Of a stretch of 64,000 bases of DNA, positions 38,136 through 57,719 are shown one piece after another; the first letter of the stretch is position 1; every line of letters starts with the position of its first letter. Below the pieces are notes generated by a model. The model was given only the letters and a program-made list of their open reading frames with translations. It did not search any database and was not told the origin of the DNA. A program made the position numbers and the translations under genes. The stretch comes from an uncultured Pseudomonadales bacterium (lineage in GTDB: Bacteria > Pseudomonadota > Gammaproteobacteria > Pseudomonadales > Pseudohongiellaceae), in contig CALTDI010000021.1 of the NCBI GenBank assembly GCA_943842505.1, positions 25,722 through 89,721 on the forward strand, in the 5' to 3' direction.

Positions 38136-40758
38136 TCAGCTATCTGCTTTCTGTTTCAGCTCATAAAGAATTTTAAGCGCTTCTTTCGCGGTGATCTCAT
38201 CGACTTCCAGCCTCTGCAGAAAGTCCACGGCAGGATGGGGCACGGTGGCAAACATCTCACTCTGAAATGGCGAGTCGGCTTCAGCTGCGGGCACCGATGA
38301 GGATGTGGAGGGGCTCACCGCAGTTGTTGCTTGAGCCGGCGTGTCGATCTCCAATTGCTGCAATTTCTCTCGGGCCTTCTCGATGACGGCGCGGGGTATA
38401 CCCGCCAGCTGGGCTACCTGCAGGCCATAGCTCTGGTTGGCGGGCCCCGCCTTGACGGCATGCAGGAAGACGATGCCATTGTCGTGCTCGATCGCATCCA
38501 GGTGCACGTTAACGATCGCAGGATAAGTCTCCGGCAGAATGGTAAGTTCGAAATAGTGAGTGGCGAATAGGGTGTAGGCCTTCACGTGTTCTGCGATATA
38601 CACCGAGGCGGCCCATGCTAGGGATAGGCCATCGAAGGTGCTGGTGCCTCTGCCAATCTCATCCATAAGCACCAGGCTGTTTTCTGTGGCGTTGTGCAGG
38701 ATATTCGCCGTCTCGGTCATTTCCACCATGAAAGTAGAGCGGCCACCGGCGAGATCGTCGGATGAGCCGATACGAGTAAAGATTCTATCGATGGGGCCTA
38801 AGGTAACTGCTGTAGCCGGCACGTGGCTGCCACACAAGGCGAGCAGGGTGATCAATGCGGTCTGCCGCATATAGGTCGACTTACCGCCCATGTTCGGGCC
38901 GGTAATGATTAGCATCTTCTGCGTGAGGTTTAGACAGACGTCGTTAGCAACGAATGTGTCGGCAGTGACTTTCTCCACAACCGGGTGTCTGCCGCCTTCG
39001 ATAGTTATGCCCGGCTCATCGCTTAACACCGGCTCACAGTATTCAAGATTCACCGCGCGCTCGGCGAAGCAATTCAGCACATCCAGCTCGGCGAGAGCCT
39101 CGGCGCTGGTGATCAGTCGCGTGAGCTCCGTGGCGAGCTCTTCAATCAAGGCGTCATACAAGGCCTTCTCGCGGCTCAGCGATTTGCTGCGTGCGCTCAA
39201 TACCTTGTCTTCGAATTCTTTTAACTCGGGGGTGATGAAGCGCTCGGCGTTCTTCAGTGTCTGGCGGCGCACATATTCTGCGGGCAATTCGGCACCGGCC
39301 TGACCCTTGCTGATTTCTATGTAGTAGCCGTGCACACGGTTGTAGCCGACCTTGAGCGTGGCGATGCCGGTGCGCTCCTTCTCTCGAACCTCAAGATCGA
39401 TTAGATACTGGCCGGCGTTGCTGCTGAGGTTGCGCAGTTCGTCGAGCTCGGCATCGAAGCCTGTGGCGATCACGCCTCCCTCGCGGATAACCACCGGAGG
39501 GTTCTCCTCAAGGGAGCGAGTCAGCAACGCGCTCTGCTGGGGAAACTCGCCTATGCGCTGCGCTATCTCGGTAATGTAGGTCGCCGTCATCGACGACAGC
39601 TGCTGTTGCAGTTGCGGAAGCTGAGCTAGACCGTCGCGCAGCTTCGCCAGATCCCGTGGGCGCGCCGAACGCAGCCCCAGGCGCGCGATGATGCGCTCCA
39701 AGTCGCCTATGTTCTGCAGCACCTCATGCAGGGCCTCGAAGTGATAGTCACTCTTCAGTGCGGCGACCGCCTGTTGTCGCAGCAGCAACTGGCTGCGCTG
39801 CCTAAGTGGTCGATTGATCCAGCGCGATAACAGGCGGCTGCCCATGGCCGTCGCTGTGCGATCGATCACCGACAGCAGGGTATTGTCCTTGCCGCCGGCA
39901 AGATTACTATCCAGCTCCAGGTTGCGGCGGCTAGCAGCGTCGAGGATGACGCTGTCTTCCTGACGCTCTACCTGTATCCCCTGAATATGGGGCAGGTCCG
40001 ATTTCTGCGTCTCCCGCGCATACTGAATGAGGCAGCCGGCAGCCTGGAGGGCGGCGCTCAGATCTTCGCAATCGAAGGCGGATAGATCGCGGGTATTGAA
40101 AATGTTCGGTGAGGATTCGGTTCGCGTTCTCCAGCTCGAATTCCCACACCGGTCGCCTGCGTTTCGCAGGATGATTCAGTGCGGCTTCCACCTCGGTTAA
40201 TTCTTCCTGAAACAGAATCTCGGCAGGCTGGATGCGACCTATCTCGGAAGTCAGCGCGTCCAGGCCTTGCATCTCGCTAAGCACGAATCTGCCGCTGCTG
40301 ATATTCATGAAGGCGATGCCATAGGTTTTCTGCGCGGCAGTCTTGCCTGCGCTAGCGCTGATGGCGAGCAGGCAATTATCGCGGCGCTCGTCCAGCAGGG
40401 CTTCATCGCTCACCGTTCCCGGTGTGATGATTCTAACAACCTGTCTCTCTACCGGGCCCTTGCTGGTAGCCGGGTCGCCGATCTGCTCACAGATGGCGAC
40501 GGAGATACCGGCCTCGACCAGCTTCGCCAGATAGCGATCCGCCGCATGGTAGGGGATGCCGCACATGGGAATAGGCTCGCCGCCGGATTTACCGCGGGCG
40601 GTGAGAGTAATGTCCAGAACATTGGCAGCGCTCTTGGCGTCTTCAAAGAACAACTCGTAGAAGTCGCCCATGCGATAAAACAGCAGACTGTCTTGGTGCT
40701 GTGCCTTGATGCGCAGAAACTGCTGCATCATCGGAGTGTGTGTTTTTGCGTCGGTCAA
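38136..40758 (-). pseudogene. mutS: DNA mismatch repair protein MutS, interrupted by a 1-nt frameshift
   Basis: N-terminal ORF 39931..40758 ([32 protein letters not shown]) and C-terminal ORF 38136..39869 ([17 protein letters not shown]). Removing one base from the AAAA run at 40099-40102 restores [28 protein letters not shown] and joins the frames. Confidence 0.9.
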
Positions 40759-41438: not shown

Positions 41439-41476
41439 ACAGAAAAACTAAAGGAATTCGATTTTTTGCCAATATA

Positions 41477-41492
41477 CTGGTTGTATATACAG
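41477..41492 (+). promoter_or_regulatory. LexA (SOS) box 1
   Basis: CTGGTTGTATATACAG matches CTG-N10-CAG with TATATA core. Confidence 0.88.
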
Positions 41493-41514
41493 TAATAATT
41501 TGTTTAAATTTCCA

Positions 41515-41530
41515 CTGGTCGTATATACAG
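41515..41530 (+). promoter_or_regulatory. LexA (SOS) box 2
   Basis: CTGGTCGTATATACAG, 38 bp downstream of box 1. Confidence 0.88.
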
Positions 41531-41634
41531 TAGTTTAGAAATTGGGCCCGGGTGCAAAGAAAGAGCAGCTAAAGCCCGCAGGAAAAGGCCACATAGACAA
41601 CTTATCGGAATCTTTTAGGAAACAGGTGTACACA

Positions 41635-41904
41635 ATGCAGATCACAACGAGCGCTGTAAGCAACAAATTATCAACCAGATTGGCGCCAGCGGAGTCTGCT
41701 AACACAGGGTCATACGATTTATGGCTGAACTCGATGTTACCTACCGTGAGTCCATCGATGGTCACGGGAGTGACTTCGAGTTCGAGCCACCAGATTGCGG
41801 GTCAGATTGTGAACCTGAGAATTGACAGCGAACGTCTTGCCGAAAAGCTCATGCAGCTAGGCTGCGATCAAATGCCAACGGGCATGGCTAAGGAAAGATT
41901 GTAA
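41635..41904 (+). CDS. Small protein with a FlgM-like C-terminal motif; putative SOS-regulated gene
   Basis: Internal ATG at 41635 (MQITTSAVSNKLSTRLAP...); C-terminus RIDSERLAEKLMQL closely matches KVDSDRLAEKLMEL of the FlgM ORF at 57408..57719; immediately downstream of two LexA boxes. Confidence 0.65.
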   Translation: MQITTSAVSNKLSTRLAPAESANTGSYDLWLNSMLPTVSPSMVTGVTSSSSHQIAGQIVNLRIDSERLAEKLMQLGCDQMPTGMAKERL

Positions 41905-41939: not shown

Positions 41940-41984
41940 AGTAGCCGGGGACAGGCTACTATTTAAAACTCAGGAGACTGAGTT
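41940..41984 (+). promoter_or_regulatory. Two consecutive hairpins in the recA leader
   Basis: AGTAGCC-GGGGACA-GGCTACT (41940-41960) and AACTCAG-GAGA-CTGAGTT (41967-41984, GNRA-type loop) followed by TATTTAG. Confidence 0.6.
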
Positions 41985-42060
41985 ATTTAGGGGCAACCCG
42001 ACAACTGCTTTACTCACGGAACCAGGCTTCAGTTGTGAATGTAAACACAAGGAAATTAAG

Positions 42061-43149
42061 ATGATTGAAGGTAACGACAACAAAGAAAAGGCACTCGCAG
42101 CTGCGCTAACGCAAATCGAGAGACAGTTTGGCAAGGGTTCCATGATGCGGCTCGGCGACACCGATCGCGAGCCAATACCGGCCATCTCTACTGGGTCGCT
42201 GGGGCTGGATATAGCCCTTGGCATAGGCGGTCTGCCACGGGGCCGAGTGGTTGAAATCTACGGGCCAGAGTCCTCGGGTAAGACTACCCTAACGCTTCAG
42301 GTTATCGCCGAGGCACAGAAGGCCGGCGGCAGCTGTGCGTTCATCGACGCAGAACACGCGCTGGATCCTATCTATGCGGGCAACCTGGGTGTCGATGTCG
42401 ACAACCTGTTAGTGAGCCAGCCGGATACCGGTGAGCAGGCGCTGGAAATATGCGACATGGTCGTACGCTCAGGTGCCTTGGATGTCGTTGTCATCGACTC
42501 CGTAGCGGCGCTAACGCCGAAGGCTGAGATCGAAGGCGACATGGGCGACAGCCACATGGGTCTGCAGGCCAGACTGATGTCTCAGGCACTTAGAAAGATG
42601 ACAGGCAACATCAAGAATTCCAATACTCTGGTTATCTTCATCAATCAGATTCGTATGAAGATCGGTGTCATGTTCGGCTCGCCGGAAACAACGACGGGCG
42701 GCAACGCACTGAAGTTCTATTCGTCGGTAAGGCTGGATATCCGCCGCATCGGTTCGATCAAAGAGGGCGACGAGGTAGTCGGCAACGAGACTCGAGTCAA
42801 GGTCGTCAAGAACAAGGTGGCACCACCTTTCAGACAGGCTGAGTTTCAGATCATGTACGGCAAGGGTATTCATCATTTGGGCGAGGTTGTTGATCTGGGT
42901 GTTAAGCAAGGCCTGGTCGAGAAGTCCGGTGCCTGGTATGCCTATAAGGGTGAGAAGATTGGCCAGGGTAAGAAGAACGCCAGCCTGTATCTAGAAGAGA
43001 ACCCGCACATCGCCGAGGAAATCGAATTGCAGATTCGCGCACAGCTATTAGGTGGCGATCTGATCGAAGAGGCAGCCAATTCTGAAGAAGAAATACCTGC
43101 CAACGATGACGATGTGGTAGTGCTAGCCGATGCCAAGAAGAGCAGCTAG
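42061..43149 (+). CDS. recA: Recombinase RecA
   Basis: [19 protein letters not shown]...[26 protein letters not shown]. Confidence 0.99.
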
Positions 43150-57407: not shown

Positions 57408-57719
57408 TCAGTCCCTATCGAGAGAGGCTTCCAGCTCCATCAGCTTTTCAGCTAGCCGGTCGGAGTCTACTTTATAGTCCCCATTGAAGATGCGGCGGTG
57501 CAGGGATACGACCTTTGTGGCATTGATCGTAGGCAGTTCATCCAGAGCCGCACGCAGCTCATCGAGATCTATAGCAGGCTCAGCCTGCTGCTTATCCCTC
57601 TGCCTATCTCTTAGCAGGCTTGTGACCACCGATCTAACTGTTTCCTGATTCAATCTCTGCTGGTTGCCAGAGGTCTTGGATGTTGGAGTCTCTTTTTTCA
57701 CAGGCGCAATTCTTCTCAA
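57408..57719 (-). CDS. flgM: Anti-sigma-28 factor FlgM
   Basis: C-terminal LPTINATKVVSLHRRIFNGDYKVDSDRLAEKLMELEASL is typical of FlgM. Confidence 0.82.
   Translation of the reverse strand: MRRIAPVKKETPTSKTSGNQQRLNQETVRSVVTSLLRDRQRDKQQAEPAIDLDELRAALDELPTINATKVVSLHRRIFNGDYKVDSDRLAEKLMELEASLDRD

Follow-up and report, generated by a model that had tools for sequence, protein, structure and literature searches.

A small ORF with a FlgM-type C-terminal helix in the structured recA leader of a Pseudohongiellaceae clade

Between cinA and recA of an uncultured Pseudomonadales bacterium (Pseudohongiellaceae; GCA_943842505.1), a small open reading frame (ORF) follows two LexA-type boxes and ends in residues resembling the anti-sigma28 factor FlgM, which raises the question whether DNA damage could reach the flagellar sigma factor FliA through a gene co-expressed with recA, or whether the region serves recA itself. 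The locus was analysed within a stretch of 64,000 nt (contig CALTDI010000021.1, positions 25,722–89,721; hereafter the window, to which all coordinates refer). The original prediction, made from the letters of the window, had read the ORF as a possible FlgM paralogue induced by DNA damage along with recA.

The recA operator and the position of the small ORF

Box 1 (TACTGGTTGTATATACAGTA, 41475..41494) overlaps a promoter-like site, TTGCCA (from 41466)-16-TACAGT (to 41493), and box 2 (CACTGGTCGTATATACAGTA, 41513..41532) lies 38 bp from box 1; the two CTG-N10-CAG boxes first described upstream of the ORF were thus found at that place and spacing. Upon screening of the whole 64 kb with the pattern TACTGNNNNTATATACAGTA at no more than 2 mismatches, two matches were returned, which were boxes 1 and 2; the expectation by chance was 0 and shuffled sequences yielded none. 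For comparison, 71 genomes belonging to the genus supplied their recA leaders (one contig being cut). Two boxes at a distance of 37–38 bp were present in 58 of the 71 leaders and a single box in 12, box 1 being near-invariant genus-wide, and the majority of these leaders were without the small ORF. While the boxes do stand upstream of the ORF, as had been claimed, they belong to recA (362 aa, 42061..43149, + strand; orthologues identified in the genus), and on this comparative evidence the tandem boxes form the operator of recA throughout the genus.

The same genome encodes lexA (TIGR00498, E = 4.4e-68) with a box of its own, CACTGTAATTATATACAGTT, just upstream, which suggests autoregulation; together with the retention of the promoter boxes in relatives, this argues for the LexA-type control that had been assumed. 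A perfect LexA-type box, TACTGTATATAAATACAGTA, was also noted elsewhere in this genome (G000 C8:217710, L144), directly before tag, a gene named from its sequence as 3-methyladenine DNA glycosylase I; around another perfect box, TACTGTATGTATATACAGTA (G000 C6:168311, L142), a clear SOS gene was absent among the ORFs listed.

No terminator-like site was found between box 1 and recA, and hence the small ORF lies inside the leader of the recA mRNA. With one promoter-like site in this position, ORF and recA would be served by a single promoter; the ORF probably sits within a LexA-controlled recA leader, which would make it inducible in the SOS response.

As a separate observation in the neighbourhood, mutS (window 38136-40758, minus strand) is broken by a frameshift near 39870-40150 into two ORFs, and an intact 873-aa ORF occupies this place in two close relatives, G020 and G093; the split may be a real loss (mutator) or an assembly error.

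Coding capacity and folded structure of the leader

The ATG of the ORF (41635..41904, + strand, 89 aa, ATG to stop) is preceded by an AGG at a distance of about 9 nt; both the ORF of about 90 aa from 41635 and the recA start at 42061 had been predicted correctly. Homologues were found in 12 genomes (12 species), every one between cinA and recA. These are the 12 genomes with the closest RecA, and they form one clade in the recA tree (support 95/97), so the cinA-ORF-recA arrangement proposed for checking in relatives is conserved but confined to that clade. Conservation extends over the full length of the ORF in 11 of the 12 homologues, which measure 73–108 aa and differ by in-frame gaps.

Across 11 species the conserved C-terminal stretch reads I-D/N-S-E-R-L-A-E-K-L-M/V-x-L, and over these last conserved 13 residues dN/dS is about 0.05. 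In the codons of this motif, 12 of 13 third positions vary as against one second position, with synonymous change near saturation, and no such pattern was displayed by the other two frames tested. From the low dN/dS and the third-position variation it follows that the ORF is translated and its product selected; judged by its codons, the ORF is protein-coding, and a non-coding leader with a chance ORF was ruled out by the same codon-position and dN/dS evidence. Two further candidates were rejected: the alternative frame MAELDV...EFEPPD, opened by an ATG in the stem of hairpin P1 (described below), contains a stop in leader L062 and, as a frame, displays no selection, and a Peptidase S24 match of the ORF (E = 0.16) recurred in no homologue and was treated as noise.

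Hairpin P1 (TGGCTGAACTCGATG...TTCGAGTTCGAGCCA, 41722..41789, + strand) lies inside the ORF, its 16 outer pairs carrying compensatory changes over the genus. It was alignable in 32 leaders, about half of those examined, with no clear counterpart found in the most distant ones, and it is also present, with different letters, in recA leaders of species that lack the ORF. At the 12 inner pairs, 95.8% of the cells were standard pairs (24 distinct sequences), and 8 of these 12 pairs had changed on both sides (45 cells vs. 18 in shuffles); as a control, partners were slid by 1–3 columns, upon which pairing fell to 27–43%. Over 16 pairs, G.U was counted 48 times and A.C 7 times, an excess from which it follows that the RNA of the + strand is what is kept; this asymmetry, and the better folding of the sense than of the antisense strand in about 28 of the 32 leaders, disfavour an inverted repeat at the DNA level. 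Within the protein, conservation is highest in YDLWLNSMLP...VTSSSSHQ, which the two arms of P1 encode. Synonymous change amounts to 0.16 inside P1 vs. 0.49–0.64 in the flanks, and the segment is thus constrained twice; as it overlaps a hairpin that covaries in species without the ORF, part of the conserved core of the ORF is imposed by the RNA.

Downstream of the ORF, three hairpins follow on the + strand. P2 (AGTAGCC-GGGGACA-GGCTACT, 41940..41960) exposes a GGA in its loop (41949-41951), which is retained in most leaders of the genus over a variable stem; the small P3 (ACTCAG-GAGA-CTGAGT, 41968..41983) was assigned from sequence and alignment; and P4 (ACAACTG-(CTTTACTCACGGAACCAGGCTT)-CAGTTGT, 42001..42036) carries an A-N-GGA at 42016-42020. 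TCANGGA was found in P4 of 67 of the 71 genus leaders, N being C in 27, T in 25, A in 8 and G in 7 with invariant neighbours, and P4 was absent from the recA leaders of seven other families. A second A-N-GGA, in ACAAGGA (42047..42053, + strand), lies at the recA ribosome-binding site, and in 64 of 71 leaders an ANGGA falls within the 25 nt that end with the recA ATG. A-N-GGA is the core site of CsrA/RsmA (PMC11882435); such sites thus occur in the loop of a hairpin as well as at the ribosome-binding site, and csrA is present in the genome. Motif and position suggest that recA may be translationally controlled by CsrA/RsmA; no paper among those searched described CsrA acting directly on recA. 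The covariance models of Rfam 15 gave no match at E ≤ 1 to the leader of the window or to 13 relatives. By alignment, the region is a new structured recA leader RNA, genus-wide and absent from Rfam, that combines several hairpins with A-N-GGA sites. Independently of any effect on FliA, a covarying recA leader with CsrA-like sites means that recA may be controlled post-transcriptionally besides LexA.

Such a leader could be all there is, i.e. a cis-acting recA leader RNA in which translation of the ORF opens P1 and thereby tunes recA, the peptide itself being inert. That P1 exists in other species of the genus where the ORF is absent, that the protein core is partly RNA-imposed and that P2 and P4, with their GGA, adjoin the recA start all speak for it. 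However, it is the C-terminal motif, beyond the bounds of P1 and with its saturated synonymous change, that is under the strongest selection at the protein level, and this motif is specifically FlgM-like, as would not be expected of a sequence-indifferent leader ORF. An inert peptide is regarded as unlikely.

The FlgM-type C-terminal helix

A small protein that binds FliA, the reading preferred here, would do so through the motif IDSERLAEKLMQL (codons 41821..41859, + strand), which is borne by the peptide QIDSERLAEKLMQLCIDQ and has FlgM as its best non-self match. The true flgM of the window lies at 57408..57719 (− strand; Pfam FlgM, E = 1.2e-8, over the cut-off), and alignment of the ORF end with the FlgM segment VDSDRLAEKLMEL confirmed the match reported earlier, with identity at 10 of 12 positions of DSxRLAEKLMxL. 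The FlgM of these species reads GDYKIDSERLAxKLxELE, and the same segment is carried by the solved FlgM chain 9wsf_B. According to Daughdrill et al. (1997), as cited in PMC3861889, it is in its C-terminal half that FlgM becomes ordered on sigma28.

The likeness was assessed by two rankings, both made without information about FlgM. A motif profile of 22 columns, built from the leader ORFs alone, was run against 84 whole genomes in six frames; after the ORFs themselves, the first six matches were FlgM (E = 7e-6 to 1e-3), and by coordinate comparison about 18 of some 46 non-self matches up to E = 1 were FlgM. Among 148,594 distinct 13-mers, taken from the ORFs of the window and of further loci, a set enriched in FlgM loci, the best 13 non-self matches were all the homologous FlgM helix, FlgM of other families included. 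With FlgM on top of both, the proposed resemblance was borne out; as far as sequence comparison can tell, the 13-residue motif is the C-terminal helix of FlgM, with a likeness beyond chance. Convergence of a generic amphipathic helix in a protein with another target would agree with the shortness of the match, the silence of the Pfam FlgM model, the wealth of common helix residues in the motif and the appearance of unrelated proteins from E = 0.002 in the 84-genome search; set against the first place of FlgM in two FlgM-blind rankings, with FlgM of other families near the top too, it is considered very unlikely.

A FlgM paralogue, as originally proposed, was not recovered. No Pfam match to FlgM (PF04316) was obtained at E ≤ 10 for the 10 ORF proteins tested, while flgM of the same genome passes; NCBIfam and PHROG scans gave no match in any member tested. 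When the ORF family was compared with the FlgM of the genus using hhalign, only about 15 columns were aligned, and the profile comparison revealed no equivalent of the preceding FlgM helix, VVxLHxRIxxGxY (segment VVSLHRRIxNGDY). Moreover, the ORF is not part of a flagellar gene cluster. The C-terminal motif would favour an SOS-controlled, complete FlgM paralogue, but such a paralogue is ruled out by these scans and the profile comparison and must be called extremely improbable.

Structure prediction with AlphaFold returned one long C-terminal helix (residues 53–78) for the ORF protein, and the rest was without confident structure, at a low overall confidence (pLDDT 57.7); the protein is predicted to be mostly disordered. 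No solved-structure relative of the whole ORF was found.

Possible action on FliA and comparison with known systems

FliA, presupposed by the original prediction, was found in this genome and in nearly the whole genus, namely in 78 of 84 genomes at E ≤ 1e-30, 76 of which pass the family cut-off. Two FliA-like sigma factors, in some cases with two FlgM genes, were observed in G020, G093, G059, G079 and G013, which suggests that some members of the genus possess a second flagellar system.

The proposed mechanism is as follows. LexA on the tandem boxes would repress a recA transcript with a long leader, and DNA damage would relieve LexA, so that leader and recA would be transcribed together. Genus-wide, the leader RNA folds into the long, variable P1 (in about half of the leaders), P2 and, just ahead of the recA ribosome-binding site, P4, and the GGA of the P2 loop and the A-N-GGA of P4 may place recA translation under CsrA/RsmA. 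In the one clade of 12 species, the leader also encodes the 73–108-aa protein, whose reading frame runs through P1. This protein would bind FliA (sigma28) via the FlgM-type helix I-D/N-S-E-R-L-A-E-K-L and, once DNA is damaged, alter the transcription of late flagellar genes, the simplest possibility being that it keeps this transcription low. That an SOS-co-expressed small protein with the sigma28-binding helix of FlgM, overprinted on a structured recA leader, binds FliA and alters late flagellar transcription is given an even chance. The wider proposal of an SOS-to-flagellum switch through a FlgM helix in a CsrA-type-controlled recA leader, with SOS, Csr and flagellar regulation meeting in one transcript, is more doubtful and is put forward tentatively.

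Several observations weigh against FliA binding. Full-length similarity to FlgM is lacking, the likeness being limited to about 14 residues; other FlgM helices also contact sigma28, and these are missing here. In G079 (leader L061) the ORF is kept without the motif; the DNA GCC GGA AAG CTG CGG CAG lies there in a different frame and has the look of a relic of the motif left by a frameshift. G101 bears the ORF, and the only FliA match there was no stronger than that of the main sigma factors (assembly 87% complete). The low confidence of the structure model counts on the same side.

The sign of the effect could also be reversed, the small protein binding FliA but competing with FlgM or shielding FliA, whereby FliA activity would be kept or raised in damaged cells. 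As the C-terminal helix alone is shared, it might fill the site of FlgM without blocking core binding, and a further role of FlgM is to guard FliA against proteolysis (review PMC3861889). Anti-sigma action is, however, the simpler expectation for a FlgM-like segment, and a competitor or shield is deemed quite unlikely.

If the protein does bind FliA, the SOS response would act directly on the flagellar sigma factor, by a route distinct from the known titration of CheW by RecA, and a working anti-sigma segment would have been added to a regulatory RNA already in place, a case of gene birth by overprinting. A literature search on SOS, LexA, FlgM and flagella together brought up no paper describing such a factor in its title and abstract.

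Like FlgM (PF04316), the ORF protein has the C-terminal helix motif I/V-D-S-E/D-R-L-A-x-K-L, predicted as a C-terminal helix in a small, mostly unstructured protein, beside a FliA system; unlike FlgM, it is without a Pfam match or the other FlgM helices, lies in a recA leader under LexA boxes and occurs in one clade only. With gammaproteobacterial LexA-controlled recA promoters, the locus shares a LexA box overlapping the promoter and the order cinA-recA-recX, but it differs from them in having two boxes 37–38 bp apart, a structured leader whose length from box 1 to recA reaches about 610 nt at most and, in one clade, an extra ORF. It resembles CsrA/RsmA-regulated leaders in its A-N-GGA in the P4 loop and at the recA ribosome-binding site, its GGA in the P2 loop and the presence of csrA in the genome, these being candidate sites by motif. 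In Salmonella, swarming is blocked in an SOS-dependent manner by RecA titrating CheW (PMC4718596). There, as is proposed here, DNA damage is linked to flagellar motility; the RecA-CheW system acts on chemoreceptor arrays via RecA itself, whereas at the present locus sigma28 would be addressed via a separate small protein.
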